The notes beneath the pieces are model-generated. The model was not told where the DNA came from, searched no databases, and saw nothing but the letters and a program-made list of their open reading frames with translations. A DNA stretch of 64,000 nucleotides, from NCBI GenBank assembly GCA_028875725.1, contig JAPPCR010000015.1:620001-684000 (forward strand), read 5' to 3'. The DNA is from Acidobacteriota bacterium (GTDB taxonomy: Bacteria; Acidobacteriota; Thermoanaerobaculia; Multivoradales; Multivoraceae). A program made the position numbers and the translations under genes. Positions 10,026 to 24,730 of this stretch are shown here, in pieces (the first letter of the stretch is position 1; each line of letters begins with the position of its first letter).

Positions 10026-10904
10026 ATGAACTCCTCCCCCGCGGCGCGGCTGCGCGCCCTGCTCGACGCTCCCGGACTCCGGGTGATGCCCTGCTGCTTC
10101 GACGCGCTCTCCGCCCGGCTCATCGAGCAGGCGGGATTCGAGCTGACCTTCATGAGCGGGTTCGCCGTCTCCGCCAGCCGCCTGGGGATGCCGGACACGG
10201 GTCTCATCTCCTTCGGCGAGATGCTCGACCAGGGCCGCAACATCTGTGCGGCCACCCGGCTGCCGGTGATCGGCGACGGCGACACCGGCTACGGCAACGC
10301 CCTGAACGTCAAGCGCACGGTGACGAGCTACGCGGCCGCCGGCTTCGCGGGCGTGATGATCGAAGACCAGGAGGCGCCCAAGCGCTGCGGGCACACCCGC
10401 GGCAAGCGGGTCGTCTCCCGCGCCGAGGCCCTGTCGCGGGTCCGCGCCGCGGCCGACGCGCGCGATGAAGGCGCGGACATTCTGGTCATGGCCCGCACCG
10501 ACGCTCGCGCCACCGACGGACTGGACGAAGCCATCGCCCGCTGCCGGGCCTTCGCCGACCTCGGCGCGGACATCCTCTTCCTCGAAGGTCCGCGGTCCGA
10601 GAGCGAGATGGCCGCGTTCTGCGAAGCGGTCCCCGGCCCGAAGATGGCGAACCTGGTCGAGGGAGGCGACACACCGTTGCTACCGCCCAAGCGGCTCGAG
10701 GAGATCGGCTACAGGATCGCTGCTTACCCGCTGACGCTTCTCTCCGCCGCCACCGCGGCGATGCTCGACGCTCTTCGAGCCCTGGGAAGCGGCGAGCAGC
10801 CTGACCGCGCCGTGGACTTCGAGCGTCTGCGGCGCATGGTCGGATTCGAGGACTACGACGCCGAGGCCGAGCGCTACCGCGTGGAGGACGAAGGAGACCC
10901 ATGA
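10026..10904 (+). CDS. Isocitrate lyase/PEP mutase superfamily enzyme (C-C or P-C lyase)
   Basis: A 292-residue TIM-barrel protein. Mg-binding residues D84 and D86 sit in GDGDTGYG, with ED at 113-114 and the mobile catalytic loop KRCGH at 119-123. The Cys in this loop is the general acid in lyases that cleave C-C bonds (2-methylisocitrate lyase, dimethylmalate lyase, oxaloacetate decarboxylase), which argues against phosphonomutase activity. It opens a four-gene plus operon and overlaps the FAD monooxygenase by 4 nt. It could cleave a dicarboxylic product at the end of the ring-degradation pathway. Exact substrate unknown. Confidence 0.87.
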   Translation: MNSSPAARLRALLDAPGLRVMPCCFDALSARLIEQAGFELTFMSGFAVSASRLGMPDTGLISFGEMLDQGRNICAATRLPVIGDGDTGYGNALNVKRTVTSYAAAGFAGVMIEDQEAPKRCGHTRGKRVVSRAEALSRVRAAADARDEGADILVMARTDARATDGLDEAIARCRAFADLGADILFLEGPRSESEMAAFCEAVPGPKMANLVEGGDTPLLPPKRLEEIGYRIAAYPLTLLSAATAAMLDALRALGSGEQPDRAVDFERLRRMVGFEDYDAEAERYRVEDEGDP

Positions 10905-12625
10905 CACGACACGAGAACGACGTCGACGTTCTGATCGTCGGAGCCGGACCGGTCGGGCTCTGCTGCTCCCGGCTGCTCAGCCGGATGGGCGTGTCCAACC
11001 GGGTGCTGGAGAGACGGTCCGGCCTGCACACGGCGCCGCAGGCGCATGTTGTCTCGGCTCGAAGCATGGAGATCTTCCGGGCCGCCGGCATTCCGGCCGA
11101 GAAGACGGTCGCCGTCGCCACGAGACCCCAGGACCAGGGCTCGATCCGCTGGGTCCAGACGCTGGCCGGCCCGGTGATCGGCGACCTCCAACTGGGATCG
11201 CCCGAACGCATCATGAAGACGTTCGCCTCGACGCCGACGCCCACGATGAACATTCCCCAGCATCGACTGGAGCCCGTGCTCTTCGACGCGGCCAGCGACG
11301 CGGGCGCCTCGATCGACTTCGAGGTCGAGTGGCTCGGCGCCACGCAGGACGAGAACGGGGTCGTGTCGGAGGCTCGGGATCACAAGACCGGCGAGAACCT
11401 GGAGATCCGCAGTCGCTACCTGCTCGGCTGCGACGGCGCGGGGAGTCCGGTGCGACGCGCGCTCGGCATCGGCATGGAGGGACCGGCCCACGTCCAGAGC
11501 TACCTCTCGGTATTCGTCCAGGGCAATCTCCGCCACGTCGTGGAGGAGCACCCCGGCCTGCTCTACTGGCACCTCGATCCGCTTGAGCCCGCGGTCTTCA
11601 TCGCCCACGACATCGACTCGACCTGGATCTTCATGCACCCGTACGATCCGGAACGGGTGTCGCAGGAGTCGTTCACCCCTGAGCGCTGCCGGCAGCTCGT
11701 CGAGGACGCCATCGGCGCCGAGGCCGACTTCGAGATTCGGGAAACCGGCTTCTGGCAGATGACCTGTCAGGTGGCCGACCGCTACCGCGACGGGCGGATC
11801 TTCCTCGTCGGCGATGCCGCGCACCGCTTCCCGCCGACCGGCGGCATGGGCATGAACACCGGCGTCGCCGACGCCTTCAATCTCGCCTGGAAGATCGCGG
11901 CGGTGCTCGGAGGACGCGCCGACGAGCGGCTGCTGGCCACCTACGACCAGGAGCGGCAACCCGTCGCGTCGGTGAACGCGGAGCAGAGCCTGTCGAATCA
12001 CCTGAAGATGATCGAGGTGGTCGAAGCCCTGCAGGTCGATCCGGGCCTCGCACCTGACGAGGCGCGGGCGGACCTACGGCGGCTGCCCGAACAGGAGGAG
12101 CGCCGGAGCGCGATCCAGGCGGCGATCGACGGACAGAGGGAGCACTTCGACATGCTGGGCCTGGACCTCGGCCAGCACTACGAGCGCGGCGCGCTGGTTC
12201 CGGACGGGACCTCGCCACCTGCGCCCGCAACGTCGACCTTCGACTTCGTGCCCTCGACCCGGCCGGGCAGCCGTCTGCCCCACGCCTGGGTCGAAGGCGA
12301 GGGCGGCCGTGTTTCCACCCTGGATCTCGTCGACCCGTCCCGGCCGACCGTCATCTGCGGCGCCGGAGGTGCGCGCTGGGTCGCCGCCGCCGAGTCCCTC
12401 GGGCTTGCCGCTCACGCGATCGGCGACGGCGCGGCGCTGGCGGATCCCCGCGGCGAGTGGCAGGCGATCAGCGGCATCGGTCCGGATGGTGCCCTCCTCG
12501 TGCGCCCGGACGGTCACGTCGCCTGGAGAGACCCGGATGGAAGCTCCGAGCTCGAGGCGGGTCTGGGAGCCGCGCTCGCCGCTGTCTACTGCACGGCTAC
12601 GCCTGCGAACGTGGAGGAAGCATGA
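10901..12625 (+). CDS. FAD-dependent monooxygenase, PheA/TfdB aromatic hydroxylase family
   Basis: A 574-residue flavoprotein hydroxylase. The Rossmann motif GAGPVG (14-19) is followed by the glutamate that binds ribose (LERR). The second FAD motif is GDAAHRFPPTGGMGMNTGVAD near residue 305. A DG motif is in LLGCDGAGS. The last 150 residues look like the thioredoxin-like C-terminal domain of phenol hydroxylases. Enzymes of this family use NAD(P)H and O2 to hydroxylate phenolic rings. It is coupled by 4-nt overlaps to the genes on both sides, so all four operon members probably serve one pathway. Confidence 0.9.
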   Translation: MTRHENDVDVLIVGAGPVGLCCSRLLSRMGVSNRVLERRSGLHTAPQAHVVSARSMEIFRAAGIPAEKTVAVATRPQDQGSIRWVQTLAGPVIGDLQLGSPERIMKTFASTPTPTMNIPQHRLEPVLFDAASDAGASIDFEVEWLGATQDENGVVSEARDHKTGENLEIRSRYLLGCDGAGSPVRRALGIGMEGPAHVQSYLSVFVQGNLRHVVEEHPGLLYWHLDPLEPAVFIAHDIDSTWIFMHPYDPERVSQESFTPERCRQLVEDAIGAEADFEIRETGFWQMTCQVADRYRDGRIFLVGDAAHRFPPTGGMGMNTGVADAFNLAWKIAAVLGGRADERLLATYDQERQPVASVNAEQSLSNHLKMIEVVEALQVDPGLAPDEARADLRRLPEQEERRSAIQAAIDGQREHFDMLGLDLGQHYERGALVPDGTSPPAPATSTFDFVPSTRPGSRLPHAWVEGEGGRVSTLDLVDPSRPTVICGAGGARWVAAAESLGLAAHAIGDGAALADPRGEWQAISGIGPDGALLVRPDGHVAWRDPDGSSELEAGLGAALAAVYCTATPANVEEA

Positions 12626-13479
12626 GACTGTTCACGACGACCGAAGGAATCGCCCTCGAGGCGGCCGGCGGTAAACTCGAGATCCTCGATCTCCCCTACG
12701 AGGACCTCGGCGAGGCGCTCCGAGCGGACCCGGAACTCGGCACCGTTCGCGATGCGGAGTCGAAGCGGCGTTGCGCGCCCGGCGACGCCACCCTCCGCGC
12801 GCCGGTCCTGCGCCCCGGCAAGGTCATCGGCATGGGCATCAACTTCCACAGCCACGTCGAGGAGACGCGTGAGTTCCTCAAGGCCCGAGGCATCGAGCCG
12901 CCGTCCGAGCCGGTGTTCTTCCTGGCACCGGGAAGCGCCGTCATCGGCCCCGGCGAGGAGATCGTGCTGCCCGCTGTCGCGCCCGACCAGGTCGACTACG
13001 AGATCGAGCTGGCTGCCGTGATCGGCGTAGGCGGCGCCTCCATCGACGAGGACGACGCGCTGCGACACGTGGCGGGCTACACGCTCGCCAACGACGTCTC
13101 GGCCCGCGATCTCCAGCGAAAGTCCTTCGAGGGTCCCGAGTACTCCCTGAGCCACGCAAAAGGCCTCGACACGTTCAAGCCGATGGGGCCGGCGCTGGTC
13201 ACCACCGACGAGTTCGCCGAGCCGCTCGACATCCGCCTCCGGGCCCGGGTCAACGGCGAAGTACGTCAGGACGAGCGGACCACGGACTTCGTTCACTCGG
13301 TGTCCCGCTGCGTGGCGCACGTCTCGCGCTTCATGCAGCTCGAACCGGGCGACGTGATGCTGACCGGTTCGCCGGCCGGCGTCGGGGTGTTCCAGGGCAA
13401 ATTCCTCCGCGCTGGCGACGTCGTCGAACTCGAGGCCGACCGGGTCGGCGTGCTTCGCAACGTCGTCGCGGCGGCCTGA
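12622..13479 (+). CDS. Fumarylacetoacetate hydrolase-family protein
   Basis: A 285-residue protein from the ATG at 12622, which overlaps the monooxygenase stop. FAH-fold features: the GMGINFHSHVEE entry, the acidic metal ligands in DYEIELAAVIG, the block ANDVSARDLQ, then KGLDTFKPMGPAL and LTGSPAGVG. The family includes fumarylacetoacetase, 2-hydroxyhepta-2,4-diene-1,7-dioate isomerase and acylpyruvases, which act on open-chain products of aromatic ring cleavage. This agrees with the extradiol-type dioxygenase encoded next. Confidence 0.9.
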   Translation: MRLFTTTEGIALEAAGGKLEILDLPYEDLGEALRADPELGTVRDAESKRRCAPGDATLRAPVLRPGKVIGMGINFHSHVEETREFLKARGIEPPSEPVFFLAPGSAVIGPGEEIVLPAVAPDQVDYEIELAAVIGVGGASIDEDDALRHVAGYTLANDVSARDLQRKSFEGPEYSLSHAKGLDTFKPMGPALVTTDEFAEPLDIRLRARVNGEVRQDERTTDFVHSVSRCVAHVSRFMQLEPGDVMLTGSPAGVGVFQGKFLRAGDVVELEADRVGVLRNVVAAA

Positions 13480-14269: not shown

Positions 14270-15508
14270 CTATCCGTCGGCCGCAATCGTCTGTCGCTGA
14301 ATGAAGCGATCGAGCAGGGGAACCGCGAACGAGTAGCGGCCGTGGCGGTTCTTGAACACCAGCCCCTGTGCGGCGAGATTCGAGAGCATCTGATTGACGT
14401 GACTGGCGCTGAACGGCTTCGAGAGCGCCGCGGATCCTTGGACGATGTCCCGTACGCTGAACTCGCCATCGCTATGGTCGAGGTGGGCGACCACCCACAG
14501 CAGTTCTCGTTGGCGATCCGTCAGTCGAGACCAGCGGCCCGAGAAGAAATCAGTGTCCAGTTTCTGCTCGATCTCCGCCACCGGTACCGACGCGGTCTGG
14601 CCACGGTCCGCTCGCTGCGTGAACACGTCGTACACCTCGCGGCAAATGAACTGGATGAAGTAGGGGTAGCCTCCTGACATCTGGATGATCGTGCGCACCG
14701 AGTCGTCGGTGAGCCGGAGGGGACAGCGGGCGTCGGCGACGGGCTTGAGGATTGCTTCTTCGCTTTCCGCTTCGCTCAGGCGATCCAGGAAGCGGACCCG
14801 GAACATTCGCTCGGCATACGTCCGCGAGGCAACCAGTTTCGGGAAGAGCGTCGGGAGTCCGACCAGCACCAGCATCAGCGGAAGGCCCTGCCGCTGCAGC
14901 GACTGGAAGCTGTCCAGCAGCAGGGCCACAGGGAACTCCTCGTGCTGCGGTTGGTCCGACAGATTCTGGGCCTCGTCGTAGGCGAAGACGATCCCCCTCG
15001 GCTTCGACGGTGCGGCGGAAAGGACCCTCCAGGTCGCCTGCAGCACCGTCTTCAGCCGGTCGAGAGACAACCCCGGACTCTCCTGATAGAGACGGCGGAG
15101 GGTCTGGTAGTCGAGACGCTGCTCGACCGCGACCTCCTGCCCGCCGAACCCGGGTTCCTGCCGGTGCTCGACGGTCACCGCGAAGCCGGACGTGAGGGGA
15201 GCGAGATCCGTGCACAGGCGGACCGCCAGGTGATCCTCCCGCAAGCTCGCGGACTCGGAAAGGTCGGCGCCCACCCACAACCAGTCGGCCGCACGGGCCA
15301 GCGGCCGAAGCGTCTCCAGCAGCACCGTCTTCCCTACTCCGCGAAGGCCGGTGATGATGAGGTTCTCGAAGACCGGGACCTGTCCCAACAGCCGCTTGAA
15401 CTCCTGCTGCTCCTGCGTCCGGCCGGCGAGCCACGGCGGTGCGTGACCAGCTCCCGGTCGAAACGGGTTCAGGAAAGGGTCTATACTCCTCTGTCTTGAT
15501 TTAGCCAT
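14270..15508 (-). CDS. AAA ATPase with C-terminal winged helix (ORC/CDC6- or STAND-like)
   Basis: A 412-residue protein. Walker A is GLRGVGKT at 54-61 and Walker B is IVFAYDEA at 173-180. The C-terminal 80 residues (from LTDRQRELLW) form a winged helix with a VRDIVQGSAALSK helix pair and a basic wing. Overall it resembles ATPases of the ORC/CDC6 group that bind DNA and are common as accessory genes in defence or mobile regions. It is transcribed leftwards from a strong promoter, away from the helicase and methyltransferase genes. Whether it works with them is unknown; ATPase plus helicase plus methylase is a combination seen in phage-defence loci. Confidence 0.85.
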   Translation of the reverse strand: MAKSRQRSIDPFLNPFRPGAGHAPPWLAGRTQEQQEFKRLLGQVPVFENLIITGLRGVGKTVLLETLRPLARAADWLWVGADLSESASLREDHLAVRLCTDLAPLTSGFAVTVEHRQEPGFGGQEVAVEQRLDYQTLRRLYQESPGLSLDRLKTVLQATWRVLSAAPSKPRGIVFAYDEAQNLSDQPQHEEFPVALLLDSFQSLQRQGLPLMLVLVGLPTLFPKLVASRTYAERMFRVRFLDRLSEAESEEAILKPVADARCPLRLTDDSVRTIIQMSGGYPYFIQFICREVYDVFTQRADRGQTASVPVAEIEQKLDTDFFSGRWSRLTDRQRELLWVVAHLDHSDGEFSVRDIVQGSAALSKPFSASHVNQMLSNLAAQGLVFKNRHGRYSFAVPLLDRFIQRQTIAADG

Positions 15509-15545
15509 AGGGCTAACTTTAGTGTGACGGCGATGGACATGTCAA
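15501..15545 (-). promoter_or_regulatory. Sigma70-type promoter and start-codon-spanning palindrome for the AAA ATPase
   Basis: On the minus strand: perfect -35 TTGACA (15540-15545), 18-nt spacer, -10 TAAAGT (15516-15521), then 7 nt to the ATG at 15508. This predicts a leaderless mRNA. TTAGCC-ATAG-GGCTAA (15501-15516) is a perfect 6+6 inverted repeat that spans the start codon and touches the -10. It is a candidate operator, plausibly for the encoded winged-helix protein itself. Confidence 0.65.
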
Positions 15546-15603
15546 TTCGGTGGGGCGGCTCCGCTCCTCGGCCACCCGAGCGGGCCCAACAGCCCGAGGC
15601 GCT

Positions 15604-15880
15604 ACCCTGAAGTCTCGCCGGACTACCCGGAAGACCGGCGAGACTACCCAAGAAACTACCCAGGAAACGGTCTCGACTACCCAAGAAACTACCCAGAAGA
15701 ACCGTTCCCGACCAGATCCTGGATCATCTGCGGGCCGAGCCCGAACTCACCCGGAAGGCGCTCGCCAAGCTGGTCGGCCTGACGCCGGATGGAGTGAAGT
15801 ACCACCTGAACAACCTGAAGGCCGCCGGAGCCCTTCGCCGCGTCGGTTCACCGAGAGCAGGCCGTTAGAAGGTACTCTGA
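15604..15880 (+). pseudogene. Relic of a winged-helix tail of an AlbA_2/RecG-like divergent-AAA protein
   Basis: One frame encodes TTQETTQE-type repeats (about 15640-15705), a linker commonly seen before the C-terminal winged helix of divergent-AAA (AlbA_2, RecG-like) regulators. A frame change near 15705-15715 is then needed to continue into the helix-turn-helix residues TRKALAKLVGLTPDGVKYHL. The tail ends at an in-frame TAG (15866-15868), where the second copy at 23316 has TGG (Trp). Four codons later both copies have CTC-TGA. No upstream ATPase domain remains. This is a decayed 3' fragment. Confidence 0.7.
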
Positions 15881-15890
15881 TCGGCGCGGA
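15771..15890 (+). repeat. 120-bp direct repeat, left copy
   Basis: Ungapped match to 23221-23340: 98 of 120 positions identical by hand count. Similarity starts abruptly at the beginning of the winged-helix coding tail and continues about 10 bases past the stop (TCGGCGCGG). The two copies flank the helicase-methyltransferase pair at a spacing of 7450 bp. Confidence 0.85.
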
Positions 15891-15907
15891 CGGGGACTGG
15901 AGCTTTC

Positions 15908-16123
15908 ATGACGAACCAGCGAACGGAGACAGGCCGCGATGTAGAAGCTGCCCTCGGAGAGGTGCTCGCTCATGTGCGCGGCAAGACGCGACTGCCTTGC
16001 CGAATCGTCGACGATCCGGCAGATGAGCGGATCGTTGCGCTCCGCAAGCGCAACCAGCGGCCCCCCGCATCGTCAGACCGGAGAACTCCAGGACGCTTCC
16101 GACGACCGGGGCCCGACTCCTAG
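15908..16123 (+). pseudogene. Decayed HigA-like helix-turn-helix antitoxin fragment
   Basis: The ATG at 15908 opens a 71-codon frame. Its first 45 residues resemble the start of HigA/Xre-type antitoxins (TGRDVEAALGEVLAHVRGK, then ADERIVALRKR). After residue 48 the match is lost. A similar helix-like string (GELQDASDDRG) reappears in another frame, as expected after a frameshift. No toxin partner is present. The call is tentative; it could also be a chance short ORF. Confidence 0.35.
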
Positions 16124-16345
16124 CTCCCATCGACTGGCCCCGTCGCTGCGGCGCGGGCCTTATGCTGCGTCGGACTGGCTTCAGTTGCCACACCCCCGCG
16201 CTCGGCGTTCTCCTACGGGCGACGGAAAAAAGCAACGCGAAGAACACTCCGCCGCAGCCGAAGTCCCGCCAGTTTGACGATCATCGCGGACGCGCTAGCT
16301 GAACGCTGATACCTGACCAAGTGTGCGCGCGAGCCGCCATGCGGC
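16124..16345. other. Non-coding remainder of the intergenic region before the helicase
   Basis: I see no convincing gene, RNA or repeat here. Short open frames on both strands lack recognisable domains and ribosome sites. Together with the two relics before it, the stretch 15546-16359 holds no intact gene. Confidence 0.5.
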
Positions 16346-16359
16346 TAGCATCCGCGGCC

Positions 16360-19300
16360 ATGCCTAACGCCCCAAGGCAGCTTCCATCGCCTGTCGGCAT
16401 CCTCGACAACCGCTCCCGCGGCATGGCCGGAGACTTCCTGAAGGCACACCTCCAGGAAGGCACAGAGCTCTCGGTCGTCTCCGCCTACTTCACGATCAGC
16501 GCCTACGAAGCGCTAAGGACGGAACTGGAACGCGTCGAGCGGATGCGTTTCCTCTACGGCGCGCCCCAACACCTGCGTGCCCTGTCGCGGGACAAACGGC
16601 CGGCAAGAGCCTTCGGGCTGACGGAAGCGGGTCTCGCGCCCACTCGGCAGCTCACGCAGCGTGCCGAGGCGAAGCGCTGCGCCGACTGGATCCGCCGTAA
16701 GGCGGAGATCCACTCGGTCAAAGACGACCTACTGCACGGGAAGATGTACCACGTTCAGGGCGCCCGAGCGCACGCCCTGATCGGCAGCTCGAACTTCACC
16801 CTTCCCGGGCTCGGTCTCCACGAGCGCAAGAACGTCGAACTGAACCTAGTGGTCGACGGGGACCGTGACCGAAACGACCTCCTCGCGTGGTTCGAGGAGT
16901 GGTGGAGCGACACGAAGCGAACCGAAGACGTGAAGGACCGCGTGCTGCGCGAGTTGGAACTTCTTCACTGCAACCACTCGCCCGAGTTCATCTACCACCT
17001 GACCCTCTTCCACCTCTTCGGGGACGAGCTGGCCGACCTCGCCGGAACCGACGAAGATGTCGACCGGCGCGGTCTGGGCCGGACGGAGATCTGGCGTTCG
17101 CTCTTCGACTTCCAGAGGGAGGCCGCGAAGATCGTCATCGATCGGGTGAATCGACTGAACGGCTGCATCCTCGCGGACAGCGTTGGCCTCGGAAAGACCT
17201 ACACCGCCCTTGCCGTCATCAAATACTTCGAGTTGCAGAACGAACGGGTCCTGGTTCTCTGCCCCAAGAAGCTGATGCGGAACTGGAAGAGCTTCAAGGC
17301 AAACTCGACGGTCAATCCGTTTACTGAAGACCGCTTCAGCTACGACGTCCTGTTTCACACCGACCTCTCCCGTAGCTCCGGCTGGAGTGGCGACCAGGAC
17401 CTCGCTACCGTGAACTGGGGGAACTACCACCTCGTCGTTATCGACGAGTCCCACAACTTCCGCAACAACACCCGGGGCACCGAGGCCGACGGCGAACCCA
17501 GGCGAAAGTCGCGGTACGAGAAGCTGATCGAGGACATCGTCGGCAGCGGCATCAACACGAAGGTCCTCATGCTGTCGGCCACGCCGGTCAACTGCGACCT
17601 ACGCGACCTCCGGAATCAGATCTCCTTCATCGCGGGAGGCGACGTCACCCGCGAAGCAGCGGCCGACGGCTTCTTCGGCGGCCCGAAACGCCTTGACGTC
17701 GACTCCATCCGCCAGACGACGGAAGCGGCGCAGAGGCGATTCGCCGACTGGGCTCGCAAGCCCCAGGCGGAGCGCAAGCGCGAAGGCTTGATCGATGTTC
17801 TCGACGCAGACTTCCTCCGTCTCCTGGATGGCGTCAGCATCGCCCGGTCCCGCCGGCACATCCTGGAGCACTACGAAGACGACATGGGCCGACTCGGCGC
17901 ATTCCCGACACGAGAGCGGCCTGAGTCGGTCTATGCCGAGATCGACCTCCAGAACCCGAAGTTCTCCTTCGATGGGCTGGTCGAGCAGATCGAGAACCTG
18001 AATCTGGCTCTGTACAACCCCACGGGGTACCTCCGCGAGGACCTAAGTCCCGTGGTGCGGGCCGAGTACGAGCGTGACGTAGTCAGCGGCTTCACCCAAG
18101 TGGGCCGCGAGCGTAGCCTGATCGGGATGATGAAGGTGAATCTCCTGAAGCGGCTCGAAAGCTCGGTCGAGTCCTTCCGTCTGACCCTGCAGAGGACGCT
18201 CGGGAAGATCGACGACCTCTTCGCGGCGTTCGAACGCTTCGAGCGTGCGGAACCGCGCAATCTGGACCTCCCCTACTCGAAGCTCTCGCCGGACGACGTC
18301 GAGGACCCCGACGTCGAGTACGGCGACTTCGTCGTCGGCGGCAAGCTCGGCTTTGACTTGCGACACATCGACATCGCGAAGTGGCGCCCTCTCCTGGAGC
18401 AGGATCGGGTGATCTTGCGCCACATTCTGGCGGAGGCGGCCGAGGTCGTTCCCGGACGAGACGCCAAGCTCGCCGAACTCCGTCGGCGCATCGAGGAGAA
18501 GCTCCGGGCACCGAGTAGGACGAAACACGGGCACGCGAACAGGAAGGTCCTCGTCTTCACGGCGTTCTCCGACACCGCGGAGTACGTGTACGACAACCTG
18601 GCGCCGGCGGTGCAGGCGGAAGGCGGCCAGATCGGACTCGTCCGGGGAAGCGGCGGCAACCGGGCCACATCCGGGCGAGCCAACTACGACGAGATCCTGG
18701 CGAACTTCAGCCCGGGGTCGCACGCCGGCACGTTCTCGCGTGAAGACGGAATCGACGTACTGGTGGCAACGGACTGCATCTCCGAGGGGCAGAATCTCCA
18801 GGACTGCGACGTCGTCATCAACTACGACATTCACTGGAATCCCGTGCGCATCATCCAGCGGTTCGGCCGCGTGGACCGGATTGGTTCCCCGAACGCGTCC
18901 GTGAAGCTGGTGAACTTCTGGCCCGTCGAGGACTTGGACCGCTACCTGAACGTCCAGAGCCGCGTTCGGGCGCGAATGGCGCTGGTCGATGTGACGGCTG
19001 CTCAGGGCGACGATCTGCTGGAGGACCAGCAGACGAGGGAGATCGTCCAGGAGGAACTGCAATTCCGCGACAAGCAGTTGCGGCTGCTCAGGGAACAGGT
19101 GGTCGATCTGGAGGACTTCGAGGACGCCGTCAGTCTGGCCGACTTCTCGTTGGCGGACTTCCGCCGCGACCTGCAGGAGTTGCTCGCATCCCAGCGGGAA
19201 GCGCTCGAAGCGGCCGCTCTCGGCCTCTACGCGGTTGTGCCGCCGAGCACGCCGAGCGGAACCGTGGCGCCGGGCGCAATCTTCTGTCTGCGTCAACGCG

Positions 19301-19740
19301 ACAACGAAACACCGGAGGACGCTGGCGCCGGAGGCCGCGGTCGCCGGGGTGCCGACCGACGCCGGATCAACCCCTTGGGCAGCCACGACCTGGTCTACGT
19401 CCGCGACGACGGCGAAGTCGAGTTCGGATTCACTTCGGCCAGAAGGACGCTCGCGCTGTTCCGAGATCTCGCCCAAGGCAGAGACTCGGCCATCGAGGAG
19501 TTGTGCGGGATCTTTGATCGACGCACGAGAAACGGAGCGGAGATGGGCCACTACGACGACCTGATCCTGCGCGCTGTCCGCAACATCGTCAGCAACTTCG
19601 CGCGACGGGCTGGCCAACAGCTTGGTCGCAAGGACGGCATGCTGCCGCGCGCTGCGGCGCAACCGCCTCGAGTCGACGGCGACTACGAGTTGGTGACGTG
19701 GCTGGCGATCATCGACTCGGAACCCGGGAGCCAGACGTGA
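16360..19740 (+). CDS. PLD-domain SNF2/DEAD-like helicase (defence-type)
   Basis: A 1126-residue protein. The N-terminal 200 residues are PLD-like: HGK near residue 127, then IGSSNFTLPGL. The usual aspartate of HxKxxxxD is not seen. The SNF2 helicase core follows: ADSVGLGKT (about 271), DESHNF (about 362), LMLSATPVN (about 405), and the C-lobe with LVFTAFSDTAEY, ATDCISEGQNLQ (about 803) and QRFGRVDRIG (about 831). I use the ATG at 16360 rather than the in-frame GTG at 16321, because TAGCAT at 16346-16351 would give a leaderless start. Such helicases translocate on DNA in BREX-, DISARM- and R-M-like systems. It overlaps the methyltransferase by 4 nt (GTGA). Confidence 0.88.
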   Translation: MPNAPRQLPSPVGILDNRSRGMAGDFLKAHLQEGTELSVVSAYFTISAYEALRTELERVERMRFLYGAPQHLRALSRDKRPARAFGLTEAGLAPTRQLTQRAEAKRCADWIRRKAEIHSVKDDLLHGKMYHVQGARAHALIGSSNFTLPGLGLHERKNVELNLVVDGDRDRNDLLAWFEEWWSDTKRTEDVKDRVLRELELLHCNHSPEFIYHLTLFHLFGDELADLAGTDEDVDRRGLGRTEIWRSLFDFQREAAKIVIDRVNRLNGCILADSVGLGKTYTALAVIKYFELQNERVLVLCPKKLMRNWKSFKANSTVNPFTEDRFSYDVLFHTDLSRSSGWSGDQDLATVNWGNYHLVVIDESHNFRNNTRGTEADGEPRRKSRYEKLIEDIVGSGINTKVLMLSATPVNCDLRDLRNQISFIAGGDVTREAAADGFFGGPKRLDVDSIRQTTEAAQRRFADWARKPQAERKREGLIDVLDADFLRLLDGVSIARSRRHILEHYEDDMGRLGAFPTRERPESVYAEIDLQNPKFSFDGLVEQIENLNLALYNPTGYLREDLSPVVRAEYERDVVSGFTQVGRERSLIGMMKVNLLKRLESSVESFRLTLQRTLGKIDDLFAAFERFERAEPRNLDLPYSKLSPDDVEDPDVEYGDFVVGGKLGFDLRHIDIAKWRPLLEQDRVILRHILAEAAEVVPGRDAKLAELRRRIEEKLRAPSRTKHGHANRKVLVFTAFSDTAEYVYDNLAPAVQAEGGQIGLVRGSGGNRATSGRANYDEILANFSPGSHAGTFSREDGIDVLVATDCISEGQNLQDCDVVINYDIHWNPVRIIQRFGRVDRIGSPNASVKLVNFWPVEDLDRYLNVQSRVRARMALVDVTAAQGDDLLEDQQTREIVQEELQFRDKQLRLLREQVVDLEDFEDAVSLADFSLADFRRDLQELLASQREALEAAALGLYAVVPPSTPSGTVAPGAIFCLRQRDNETPEDAGAGGRGRRGADRRRINPLGSHDLVYVRDDGEVEFGFTSARRTLALFRDLAQGRDSAIEELCGIFDRRTRNGAEMGHYDDLILRAVRNIVSNFARRAGQQLGRKDGMLPRAAAQPPRVDGDYELVTWLAIIDSEPGSQT

Positions 19741-22700
19741 ACCCCATGATGCGAACCGCCGTCCGCGATGCGTTGGCCCAAGGCGCGGGCTTGCCATTCG
19801 ACGAGGCCGCGTTCCGGCTGCTGGACTGTCTGGGTTTCCGAAGCGACCGAACGCTGCCTGGCCAGACAGGCCGTGTGGCGGACCTCCCCGAGGCGTTCAC
19901 GGTAAACCAAAGGGCCACGAAGACCGCCAGGGACTTCAAGGCCGAAGCGACTTCGGCTCGCGTCCTGTTTCAGCTTGGCGATGACGAGATCCGGCACGCG
20001 TCTCAGTCCAGCCTGCTTGAAGGCGCGGGGCGGTTCGACGCCGGTTCCACCAAGAGCTTCCTGTTCGTGGCGGTGGAGTTGCGCGGGAGCGCATACTCCA
20101 GAACCCGCTACTCCCAGTTCGCCCGCGAGATGAACCAAGGCCTCGCGATGCCCGCGTTCGTCCTGTTCCGCGAGCGCGGCGGCGGGCGTATGGCGCTCGC
20201 CTTCGTTGACCGCAGGCCGCACAAGCGAGACGGTAAGAGAGAGGTCCTGAGTGGCGTCTCGTTGATCCGGGACGTTGAGCCCTCCGCGCCCCACCGCGCC
20301 CATGTGGACATTCTCGCCGATTTGTCGTTGAACCAGCGACTTGCCTGGATGGGGAGCCGGGGGAAGAGCCGGAACTTCGATGGCCTCCGGGCCGCCGTAC
20401 TCGACGCTCTAGACACCGAGGAACTGAACAAGCGCTTCTACAAGGAGCTCTTCACATGGTTCGAGCGGGCCCTGGAGGAAGCCAAGTTTCCAGCGGATCC
20501 GAACCGCACCGTCGACCCAGAGCACCACGTCATTCGGCTCATAACCCGGCTCATGTTCATCTGGTTCATCAAGGAGAAGGGTCTTGTAGCCGAGGAGCTG
20601 TTCGTCCAAGAGAAGTTGAACGCAGTGCTCAAGGACTACGACGCGAAGGGCGGCCACTCCTGGTATCGCGCAGTGCTGCAGAACCTGTTCTTCGCGACGC
20701 TGAACACCGAGATCGACCGCCGCGGTTTCAGTAGCCGCAAGCGTCGAACGCACCGCGTTCCGAGCCACTTCCGCTACCAGGACCTGATGGCAGACTCCGC
20801 CCGACTGGTGTCGCTCTTCGGCGAGACGCCGTTCATCAACGGCGGCTTGTTCGAGTGTCTCGACTCCGACCTCTCGCAAACAAGGGGTGGCTACCGAATC
20901 GACTGCTTTACGGACAACACAGATCACCGAAAGAAGATCCTCCTCCCCGATGGGCTCTTCTTCGACGACGACGGGCTGATTCCCCTGTTCGATCGCTACC
21001 GCTTCACGGTCGAGGAGAACACGCAGGTTGAGAAGGAGGTCGCACTAGACCCGGAGTTGCTGGGCAGCGTTTTCGAGAACTTGCTGGCGGCGGTCAACCC
21101 AGAAACCAAGGAAACGGCCCGCAAACAATCCGGGTCCTTCTATACGCCACGCCCTGTCGTGGACTACATGGTCGACGAAGCTCTAGCTCTGACACTCGCC
21201 AACGCCGTTGCGCCTGACGACGGCGACCTTGCTTGGTGGAGGGAACGACTACTCTATCTCTTGGATCCGGCCGCCGCCTTCGACGAGTCAGACGAGGAGC
21301 TCTTCACACCCGCCGAACGAGAGGGCATCGTCCACGCCGTAGCCGACCTCACCGTCCTCGATCCCGCCGTCGGATCCGGTGCCTTCCTGATCTCCGTCCT
21401 GAATGTCCTAACCCAGGTCCTACGAAGGCTCGACCCGCACAACGAGTTTTGGGAAGCGGAACAGCGCCGCCGCGCGGGCGAAAGGGCGAGGGACACGTAT
21501 CTCCAGGCCGACGACGATAGGACCCGGAAGGAACGACTCACTGAAATCGACGAGATCTTCACCAAGTACCGCGACTCGGACTTCGGGAGGAAGCTCTACT
21601 TGATTCAGAACGGCCTCCACGGCGTGGATGTCCAGCCCGTTGCCTGTCTAATCACGAAGTTGCGCTTCTTCATTTCCTTGGCGATCGAGCAGGACACATC
21701 GCAGGACCCGGCTCGCAACTTCGGAATCCGACCTCTGCCCAATCTCGAGACGCGCATCCTTGCCGCAAACACCCTGATCGGTGTGCCGGGCCAGGCCACG
21801 ATCCGCACTCCCGACCAGGAGCAGATCGAAGCCAGTCTTCATGCCAACCGCGAGCGGCATTTCCACGCAGCAACTCGTCGCGAGAAACTGTTGTGCCGCG
21901 AACGGGACTACGAGATCCGTCAGGCACTCGAAGTGGAGCTCCTAACACGCGGTCTTCCATCACCTGCTGCCAAGCGGGTCGCCAGCTGGAACCCCTACGA
22001 CCAGAACGCGTGCGCCGATTGGTTCGATCCGGCTTACATGTTCGGCGTCGCCGAGGGTTTCGACATCGTCATCGGCAACCCTCCCTATGTTGAGTCGCGA
22101 AACGGTGCCCTCTTTCCCTCCACGCTAAAATCTTCCTATCGGAGTCAATCCGCACACGACTGGGATGTCGACGTGCCGAAGGGAAGCGATCTACTTATCT
22201 ACTTCTTCTGGCGCGCTGCGCACCTGCTAGCTGATCGCGGGTCGGCGGTGTTCATCACACAAAACGCCTGGCTCAGCACGAACTATGGGCGCAAGTTCCA
22301 GCAGTCGTTTCTGACACGCGGACGATTCGAGAAAATCGTGGACTCCGAGAGGAAGTTCTTCCCAGACGCGGGAGCACAGAACATCAACACCGTTGTGTCG
22401 ATCTTCTCGAGAAAGACCGCAGGCGCTCATGTTTCATATCAGATGCTCGACGCCGCCATGAACGACGTTGTGCGGGAAGCATCGATCGAGACCGCCTCTC
22501 CGATGAAGTGGGGGCACCAGCTAGCGATGTCCGATTGTCTGCGCGAGGCTCTTCGACGACTCTCCGAGACCTCCGCAATGCGCCGGCCGCCAGTAGGTAC
22601 CATCAAATTCGGCCAAGGCTTGAACTTCCCGATGGCCAGGGCAACCGGTGCCGCCGGAGGCGTGCCGGTAGTGATGAAGAGGGTGCAGTTCGCAAACCTG

Positions 22701-23330
22701 GACTATGAGACGACCGCGGAAGTTGCCGTCTCTCCTAGACGTCAGGTGCCAGCCCTGTTCATGCCGCGTGGCATCGGAAGCCGGTTCTACTGCACCATGA
22801 ACTTCGGAAGAGCATACACTTACAGCCACGTGGAACTGTACCTCCCGGTAGACTGGTGGGAAGGCGAGTTGCACTATTGCCTTTGGGCTTTCATGAACTC
22901 ATCTCTGGCTTGGCTCTTTCGGGAAACGACCGGCCGCACCAACCTAGGTGGCGGCATGCTGAAGGCCGAGGCAACGGACATGAAGTCACTGCCGATCGGG
23001 CTGTTCGGTTTCGGAGACGAGGCGAGGCGTGTCCTGGACACTCACAAGGATCGACCGCCGCTTCCGGTAGACGCAGAACTGGCCTCTGAGGAGCACCTCT
23101 ACCTGGACAGGGTCGTCTTGGCGCACTTGGTATGGAGGACCTCGGAGAAGCCATTAGAAGGGAACTCTTGGAGAAGGTGTCTGCAAGGCTCCACAGAGCG
23201 AAGGGATGAGCCAAGCCAGAGGGTCGACCTGACGCCAGACGGAGTGAAGTACCACCTGGACCACCTGAGAGTGGCCGGAGCCATCCGTCGCGTCGGCTCA
23301 ACGAAAGCGGGCCGCTGGGAGGTCCTCTGA
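19737..23330 (+). CDS. Eco57I-type N6-adenine DNA methyltransferase, with probable 3' frameshift
   Basis: A 1197-residue protein from the GTG at 19737, which overlaps the helicase stop; an ATG at 19746 is an alternative. SAM-binding motif I is DPAVGSGAFL near residue 542 and the catalytic motif IV is IGNPPY near 779, as in Eco57I-class enzymes. A clear nuclease motif is not visible in the N-terminal 200 residues. After LDRVVLAHL (23127) the frame switches: one lost base would restore a typical ending (GMEDLGEAIRRELLEKVSAR... AKG) with a stop at 23207-23209. As written, the protein instead runs into the winged-helix relic. Base composition is less GC-rich than neighbours, which suggests transfer. 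Confidence 0.85.
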   Translation: MNPMMRTAVRDALAQGAGLPFDEAAFRLLDCLGFRSDRTLPGQTGRVADLPEAFTVNQRATKTARDFKAEATSARVLFQLGDDEIRHASQSSLLEGAGRFDAGSTKSFLFVAVELRGSAYSRTRYSQFAREMNQGLAMPAFVLFRERGGGRMALAFVDRRPHKRDGKREVLSGVSLIRDVEPSAPHRAHVDILADLSLNQRLAWMGSRGKSRNFDGLRAAVLDALDTEELNKRFYKELFTWFERALEEAKFPADPNRTVDPEHHVIRLITRLMFIWFIKEKGLVAEELFVQEKLNAVLKDYDAKGGHSWYRAVLQNLFFATLNTEIDRRGFSSRKRRTHRVPSHFRYQDLMADSARLVSLFGETPFINGGLFECLDSDLSQTRGGYRIDCFTDNTDHRKKILLPDGLFFDDDGLIPLFDRYRFTVEENTQVEKEVALDPELLGSVFENLLAAVNPETKETARKQSGSFYTPRPVVDYMVDEALALTLANAVAPDDGDLAWWRERLLYLLDPAAAFDESDEELFTPAEREGIVHAVADLTVLDPAVGSGAFLISVLNVLTQVLRRLDPHNEFWEAEQRRRAGERARDTYLQADDDRTRKERLTEIDEIFTKYRDSDFGRKLYLIQNGLHGVDVQPVACLITKLRFFISLAIEQDTSQDPARNFGIRPLPNLETRILAANTLIGVPGQATIRTPDQEQIEASLHANRERHFHAATRREKLLCRERDYEIRQALEVELLTRGLPSPAAKRVASWNPYDQNACADWFDPAYMFGVAEGFDIVIGNPPYVESRNGALFPSTLKSSYRSQSAHDWDVDVPKGSDLLIYFFWRAAHLLADRGSAVFITQNAWLSTNYGRKFQQSFLTRGRFEKIVDSERKFFPDAGAQNINTVVSIFSRKTAGAHVSYQMLDAAMNDVVREASIETASPMKWGHQLAMSDCLREALRRLSETSAMRRPPVGTIKFGQGLNFPMARATGAAGGVPVVMKRVQFANLDYETTAEVAVSPRRQVPALFMPRGIGSRFYCTMNFGRAYTYSHVELYLPVDWWEGELHYCLWAFMNSSLAWLFRETTGRTNLGGGMLKAEATDMKSLPIGLFGFGDEARRVLDTHKDRPPLPVDAELASEEHLYLDRVVLAHLVWRTSEKPLEGNSWRRCLQGSTERRDEPSQRVDLTPDGVKYHLDHLRVAGAIRRVGSTKAGRWEVL

Positions 23331-23340
23331 TCGGCGCGGG
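23221..23340 (+). repeat. 120-bp direct repeat, right copy
   Basis: Partner of 15771-15890 (98/120 identical, no gaps). It encodes TPDGVKYHL and an intact GRWEVL ending with TGA at 23328-23330, whereas the left copy has TAG in place of the Trp codon. Because of the frameshift at about 23127 it is read as the C-terminus of the methyltransferase. The native methyltransferase stop would lie 12 nt before the repeat. Confidence 0.85.
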
Positions 23341-23356
23341 CCGACCGACGCTCCCC

Positions 23357-24730
23357 TCAATCCACCTCCCACTTCCCCGCCTCCTCCATCGCCTTCCGGT
23401 ACGCGGACAGGCAGTACCAGAAGAGCAACGCGCCCGCCGGCTTGAAGATCGCCTGCATCGTGGCGAGCGAGTAGTGGACCTTGCCGTCGTCCTGGAAGAG
23501 GAAATCGGTGAAGGCGGCCAGTGTGCTGGTGCCGAAGGCCATGCCGATGAAGCTGGTCAGGAAGATGTAGAAGGCCGTGGCCTGGCCGCGCATCTGGTTG
23601 GGCGTGATCGGCTGGAACGCTGCCGCCATCACGCCGAGGTAGGCGCCCGAGAAGATCATCCCGGGGATCAGCACCAGCAGGGTGAGCGTGGCGCTGCCCA
23701 CGAGCGGCGCCGCGACCGAGGGCGGCGTGGCGATCAGGGTCGTCGCCAGCAGGGTGCGCACGTAGGCGTCCCTGTAGCCGCGCGCCGCAAGGCGGTTGGC
23801 GATCCAGGGCGCGACCATGATGCCGACGACCCCGGTGATGATCGAGATCGTCCCGTAGCTCGTTCCGGCGTCCCCGCGGCTCAGGCCGTAGTTGCGCACG
23901 AGGAACTCCGGGTACCAGGCGGAGGACCCGTAGCCGGCCATCGCCAGCATGGACGAGCCGATGAACAGCGGCAGGTAGACGCGCTTGCGCTCCCAGATGA
24001 ACCTGACGAACTCGGAAACCGGCAGATGCTCCCTTCCGCTCCGTGAAACCGCCAGCTCCTTGCGCTGCGGCTCGACCATCGTCAGCAGCAGAACCGCCAG
24101 CAGAACCCCGGGCAGACCGACCGTCACCAGCGTCGCCTGCCAGGGTTGCAGCGTCCCGATCACCGGCAGGTCGATCGGACCGATCCGTGTGTAGTAGTCG
24201 ATCAGCAGGCCGCCGATCACCAGGGCGAAGCCGCCGCCGACCCGCACGCCCGTCTTGTAGAAGGACATCGCGTAGCCGAAATGGGCCGGGCGGAAGCTGT
24301 CGGTGATGATCGAGTAGGCGGGCGGTGCGAGCCCGGCCTCGCCCGCGCCGACCGCCATCCGCGAAGCGAACAGTTGCGCCACGCTGTTGGCCAGCCCTCC
24401 CGCCGCCGTCGCCAGACTCCAGAAGGCGACGCTGGCGGCGACGATGACCCTGCGCGAATAGTGGTCGGCGAGCCGGCCCAGGGGAAAGCTGGCGAAGCTG
24501 TAGACCAGCGCGAACGCGGCGCCGGCGAGCAGGCTGTACTGGAAGTCGGTGATTCCGAACTGGTCGCGGATCGGGCCGACCAGGAGGGAGAGGATGTTGC
24601 GGTCGAGAAACGACAGCACGTAGGCGAGGAACAGGAGGACGACGCCGTAGTTGGCGGCGCCGAGCGACGGGTAGCCGGCGGCCTGCTCCGCCGACCCGGC
24701 TTCGCCCGCGGTCCTGGTGTCGACGGTCAA
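23357..24730 (-). CDS. MFS transporter, spinster-like
   Basis: A 457-residue protein with 12 predicted membrane helices. The N-terminal DRNILSLLVGPI and the loop GRLADHYSRRVIV (MFS motif A) match the spinster-like major facilitator group that is widespread in Proteobacteria and Acidobacteria. The start is a TTG at 24730, which overlaps the stop of the upstream amidohydrolase (TTGA), so translation is probably coupled. The substrate may be related to products of that amidohydrolase (an acyl amino acid or carboxylate); this is inference. Convergent with the methyltransferase gene. Confidence 0.88.
   Translation of the reverse strand: MTVDTRTAGEAGSAEQAAGYPSLGAANYGVVLLFLAYVLSFLDRNILSLLVGPIRDQFGITDFQYSLLAGAAFALVYSFASFPLGRLADHYSRRVIVAASVAFWSLATAAGGLANSVAQLFASRMAVGAGEAGLAPPAYSIITDSFRPAHFGYAMSFYKTGVRVGGGFALVIGGLLIDYYTRIGPIDLPVIGTLQPWQATLVTVGLPGVLLAVLLLTMVEPQRKELAVSRSGREHLPVSEFVRFIWERKRVYLPLFIGSSMLAMAGYGSSAWYPEFLVRNYGLSRGDAGTSYGTISIITGVVGIMVAPWIANRLAARGYRDAYVRTLLATTLIATPPSVAAPLVGSATLTLLVLIPGMIFSGAYLGVMAAAFQPITPNQMRGQATAFYIFLTSFIGMAFGTSTLAAFTDFLFQDDGKVHYSLATMQAIFKPAGALLFWYCLSAYRKAMEEAGKWEVD

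Follow-up and report, generated by a model that had tools for sequence, protein, structure and literature searches.

Type IIG enzymes and PglX (BrxX) of BREX combine an Eco57I/N6_Mtase core with an integral C-terminal specificity domain. Studies by Goldfarb in 2015 and Milman in 2023 are said to bear on PglX phase variation and programmed inversions. The Type-2 BREX-related (BR) systems carry an HKD nuclease that is joined to the N-terminus of a Swi2/Snf2 helicase, together with an N6-adenine methyltransferase and a DUF499 ATPase (PMC12839542); the words 'invert' and 'recombinase' are absent from the main text of that paper. In phase-variable type I restriction-modification (RM) systems, such as that of S. 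pneumoniae, inversions of hsdS change the methylation specificity, and the specificity domains reside in a separate HsdS subunit (PMC4948785). According to a report on the antiphage system Swarozyc, the DUF4062 domain is a TIR-like NADase, and it occurs there in a single protein with a winged-helix part (PMC13174449).

The 64,000-nucleotide stretch of an Acidobacteriota genome (G000) analysed here, hereafter the window, contains on its forward strand a system of two core genes that is similar to the Type-2 BR systems in its types of helicase and methyltransferase. The first gene (16372-19740, in an ORF that opens at 16321) encodes an HKD(PLD)-SNF2 helicase with the Pfam domains PLDc_2, SNF2-rel_dom and Helicase_C, and matches the unnamed PADLOC candidate C3a139 'HKD+Snf2' (2.9e-105, model positions 143-921 of 948). 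The second (19698-23209 in its native frame) encodes an Eco57I-family N6-adenine methyltransferase (Pfam Eco57I, 2.8e-23), in which the motifs DPAVGSGAF and NPPY are intact; the catalytic motifs of the helicase are intact as well. The architecture of the methyltransferase is that of the Type IIG and PglX enzymes, and its best PADLOC matches are REase_MTase_IIG. However, its partner is an HKD-SNF2 helicase rather than the BREX set, and it scores 54.2 bits, below the NCBIfam cut-off of 500 for PglX. The helicase likewise stays below the cut-off for DrmD of DISARM class 1 (145.9 bits against 610). A search of the PDB with the methyltransferase sequence gave no match. The DUF499 ATPase of Type-2 BR systems was not found at the locus; DUF499 matches in G000 lie only elsewhere, on contig C23, and the nearby ATPase (14270-15508, reverse strand) is an AAA_16 protein (Pfam AAA_16, 1.1e-10). 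Standalone DUF3780 gave no match in five genomes, in a search whose positive control likewise matched nowhere. The methyltransferase is predicted to recognise a specific site and to mark it in self DNA, whereas the HKD-SNF2 helicase-nuclease would attack DNA that lacks the mark.

The gene pair stands between two direct repeats. The preliminary description had counted 98 identities by hand over the 120 positions of 15771-15890 and 23221-23340, a figure that a gapless comparison reproduced exactly; the maximal repeat on the forward strand comprises 15772-15889 and 23222-23339 (118 nt, 83% identity, E about 1.3e-28). Such repeats might have been common throughout the genome, but a whole-genome search of G000 found these two copies only, besides a 35-bp internal self-match. 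Both repeats are indeed 3' tails of winged-helix genes, with frames encoding the C-terminus LTPDGVKYHL...RRVGS...GRWEVL followed by a stop, and their likeness extends ~10 nt beyond the ancestral TGA (15878-15880 and 23328-23330). The statement that they flank the pair exactly holds in that they lie on either side of the two genes. On the left, however, it is loose, since ~480 bp separate the left copy from the helicase start, and a small-ORF relic lies in this interval (15908-16081, forward strand, 71% identity by tblastn). Relatives of this small ORF follow a left-type tail in the congeners G014 and G003 and follow RelE in G008. On the right, the methyltransferase frame ends at a TGA (23207-23209) 12 nt ahead of the repeat; the present ORF runs on into the repeat only owing to a 1-nt frameshift near 23120. 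The window contains no integrase, as had been observed, and one is present in the full-size cassette of relatives. Integrase att sites were rejected as an identity of the repeats, which are imperfect (83%) and have no short identical core, with no integrase within the window.

The parent gene of the tails is preserved in the congener G017, where the right-hand tail belongs to an intact gene of 522 aa adjoining the same MFS gene as in the window (L045:1277-2845). This gene encodes a DUF4062 domain (PF13271, 4.7e-21), a HATPase_c_4 domain (RecG C-terminal, 3.2e-17) and an HTH/winged-helix. The right repeat of the window is the tail of a second such gene, 92.4% identical to the intact G017 tail. 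The left repeat lies in a longer 3' relic (15529-15880, forward strand) that matches residues 392-446 and 462-522 of the intact protein at 63-74% identity (tblastn). This tail belongs to a pseudogene, being frameshifted near 15700 and cut short by a premature TAG at 15866-15868, and it is 83% identical both to the right tail of the window and to the G017 tail. The DUF4062 domain is missing from the relics in the window. The earlier assignment to an AlbA_2/RecG-like gene was right as to the winged-helix/RecG-like family, but the parent here is a DUF4062 gene and not AlbA_2. Nor is its proposed role as an insertion target borne out. The parent is a full defence gene of the DUF4062 NADase type that would once have stood on both sides. 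Homologues of the gene within the genus, at identities of at least 57% (mostly >70%), are confined to this site.

The parent gene is similar to Swarozyc in joining a DUF4062 domain to a winged-helix part in one protein, and the glutamate of SPTEREF, a candidate catalytic residue, is found in the DUF4062 copies of both G017 and the distant locus L142 (PMC13174449). In contrast to Swarozyc, a HATPase_c_4 domain intervenes in the parent gene, and the copies in the window are tail relics only (PMC13174449). At L142, a DUF4062-HATPase gene is located between the helicase and the methyltransferase genes, within their operon. At other loci, the space between the two genes is filled by putative AlbA_2/HATPase, Fic or DUF1016-like genes. 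Genes of these types and of the DUF4062 type accompany the pair recurrently, and this may be why relics of such genes are next to it in the window. A regular-expression search for RecG-type tails found none in 80 distant loci.

The site is delimited by a PEP_mutase/ICL-family gene on the left (10026-10904, forward strand; Pfam PEP_mutase, 2.5e-48) and an MFS transporter gene on the right (23357-24730, reverse strand; Pfam MFS_1, 7.7e-45), the latter being present in 16 of the 21 genomes of the genus. A search for an empty site, as suggested in the preliminary description, identified a truly empty version in G002, where the two edge genes adjoin with a gap of 43 bp. Other congeners hold a DUF4062 stub (G015), metabolic genes only (G007), an ABC transporter alone (G010) or with MazF/RHH (G005 and G006), ABC, ATPase and DUF2335 genes (G018), ABC, ATPase and RelE genes (G008), or a decayed DUF4062 gene with DUF2335 (G014 and G003), to which MazF-RHH is added in G014. 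The site in G001 (C146, L106) contains an ATPase and, of the cassette recombinase, just the C-terminal 140 aa. The AAA_16 ATPase is cargo that occurs also in G001, G008, G017 and G018. The full cassette is found in G017. There, the left tail relic is followed by the helicase gene, by the methyltransferase gene with its spare specificity domain in inverted orientation, and by the gene for the tyrosine recombinase; small genes come next, and then the intact DUF4062 gene and the MFS gene. This site spans two contigs that are linked only by a 94-bp overlap. These differences between congeners show that the turnover of cargo is real.

We consider it probable (about 0.75) that the repeats are what is left of the 3' ends of a pair of paralogous DUF4062-HATPase_c_4-winged-helix genes flanking the RM-like genes in a hotspot of defence cargo, and that the bracket is a by-product of their decay. 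Two paralogous DUF4062 defence genes would once have stood on either side of the helicase-methyltransferase pair, a layout of which G017 would retain the fuller form. In the window, we infer that a deletion removed the spare specificity domain and the recombinase, along with the 5' portion of the right DUF4062 gene, and so joined the end of the methyltransferase to the tail of that gene; the left DUF4062 gene would have decayed. Deletion and decay of this kind would make the bracket a product of gene loss rather than a mark of insertion. The duplication of the DUF4062 gene could have occurred before or along with the arrival of the cassette, in an order of events that we can only infer.

An unlikely alternative is that homologous (Campbell-like) integration, or some comparable event, brought in the cassette at a DUF4062 gene and left copies of the end of that gene on the two sides, so that the repeats are insertion marks. 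Among the 21 genomes, two tails are present in both, and only, the genomes with the cassette at the site (G000 and G017), and the likeness beyond the stop codon is common to the left and right copies of these two but not shared with G014 and G003. However, the left copy is a relic of a longer gene in the same context as in G014 and G003, both of which lack the cassette, the intact gene stands on the right with its own RHH relic upstream, and the repeats share 83% identity with no short identical core. At a second locus, on contig C7 of G016, the same cassette lies between 190-bp direct repeats (93% identity) of the end of a resident gene (L043:7674-7862 and 18809-18997), a segment that is single copy in G000 (G000:C15:594659-594846) and in G017. 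This second bracket is more in keeping with an insertion process than with decay by chance, and on its account we give a small probability to a process that copies gene ends upon insertion. It is rather doubtful that the helicase-methyltransferase-recombinase unit is mobile, enters gene ends and leaves imperfect end copies of 120-190 bp, with one tyrosine recombinase both moving the unit and flipping the domains.

The possibility that the repeats are substrates of recombination, through which cargo is exchanged between fixed gene tails, is very improbable. The different cargo in about ten congeners and the empty version in G002 agree with the preliminary description of a swap site. None of the 21 genomes has other cargo between two such tails, hybrids of left and right tails are likewise absent, and most differences in cargo lie outside the two tails. 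Two tails occurring only around the same cargo, together with the lack of hybrids, do not support exchange via the tails. An origin of the cargo-free relatives by left/right recombination was rejected, since the stubs in G008 and G015 are of the right type without hybrid junctions. Finally, many AlbA_2, Fic and DUF4062 proteins have a winged-helix tail of this type, but 83% DNA identity over 118 nt that continues past the stop codon, in a sequence with two genomic copies, makes a common domain with no special history a negligible explanation.

The methyltransferase gene of relatives has a feature that the window lacks. In G016, G017 and G019, a further specificity domain lies downstream of it in the opposite orientation and is followed by a tyrosine recombinase gene, with inverted repeats of ~107-173 bp (93-98% identity). 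Both the expressed and the silent domains are TaqI_C specificity domains. The expressed position is occupied by type A in G016 and G017 and by type B in G019 and G013:C157, showing that silent and expressed domains are swapped between genomes. The arms of the inverted repeats are 95.3, 98.1 and 91.6% identical within genomes and 84-94% between genomes. The identity is thus higher within a genome in nearly all comparisons, the exception being one G017 arm that is equally close or slightly closer to the arms of G019 and G013:C157 (91.6-92.5%). Arms that are mostly closer within than between genomes are expected if they keep recombining. The G016 assembly contains two copies of the region, possibly from two strains, which are 96% identical and differ in the combination of half-domains: the first half of the silent domain on C6 is of type B, and its second half is 97% identical to the half in the expressed position on C7. 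From these sequences, the pair in relatives is predicted to switch its DNA target when recombination between the inverted repeats flips half specificity domains. Repeats longer than 100 bp could also be recombined by RecA. The arrangement resembles the phase-variable type I RM systems in its DNA inversion between specificity domains, but here the domains form the C-terminal part of one methyltransferase chain with an HKD-SNF2 partner rather than in an HsdS subunit (PMC4948785).

In G019, an insertion of ~1.6 kb splits the recombinase gene (L044, reverse complement 11711-13296), which would freeze the switch, provided that it is driven by the recombinase. In G013, a cassette remnant at another site (L048:5024-5928) consists of the helicase N-terminus fused by deletion to the recombinase C-terminus, with a short fragment of a winged-helix tail upstream. 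Many congeners also have pairs of related tyrosine recombinases (56-61%) next to regulator-like genes (L091, L094 and L096), which possibly mark other invertible loci.

In the window, the 3' third of the methyltransferase gene after NPPY (22087-23209, forward strand) has been replaced and shows no homology to the domains that are invertible in relatives. The DNA identity to relatives falls from ~0.7 to ~0.4 or less at about 22100, just past NPPY, and no relative of the replaced part was found in 149 genomes of the class or in any of the loci examined. The methyltransferase stop and the MFS gene are separated by 148 bp, with no inverted repeats, silent specificity domain or recombinase. The copy in the window is probably an inactive derivative, locked or dead and unable to switch. 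Six methyltransferase copies of the genus were examined (at L043, L044, L042, L045, L047 and 19698-23209 of the window), and every one of them is frameshifted or has a frame-breaking duplication, mostly in the C-terminal part, a uniformity that calls for caution as some may be assembly errors. However, G016 and G019 share a tandem duplication of 22 bp within the left arm of the inverted repeats, which is not easily explained as an assembly error.

A genome scan with the helicase alignment identified 80 loci in many phyla, ~50 of which have a relative of the methyltransferase, usually directly downstream of the helicase. At three loci of distant relatives, part of the methyltransferase 3' tail is repeated in direct orientation (L144:15576-15746, L162:21910-21990 and L135:23204-23317), several kb downstream and with other cargo between. 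In Longilinea arvoryzae KOME-1 (NZ_DF967973.1, L114:13273-18830), a silent TaqI_C domain in inverted orientation lies after the methyltransferase, together with inverted repeats of 312 bp (95.5% identity) and a serine recombinase that is assigned to the Mpi invertase family (332.7 bits against a cutoff of 272). These repeats encode the same protein linker (INYGIKTGLNEAFI...RGRD) as those of the window's genus, and the recombinases are unrelated.

The explanation of the bracket by gene relics removes the need to pursue it as a swap site. Judging from the assemblies, the widespread and unnamed HKD-SNF2/methyltransferase pair appears to have gained inversion-based specificity switching at least twice independently, with unrelated recombinases and at the same protein linker. 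The copy in the window would represent one way in which such a switch ends, through a foreign 3' third, the loss of the recombinase and a frameshift.
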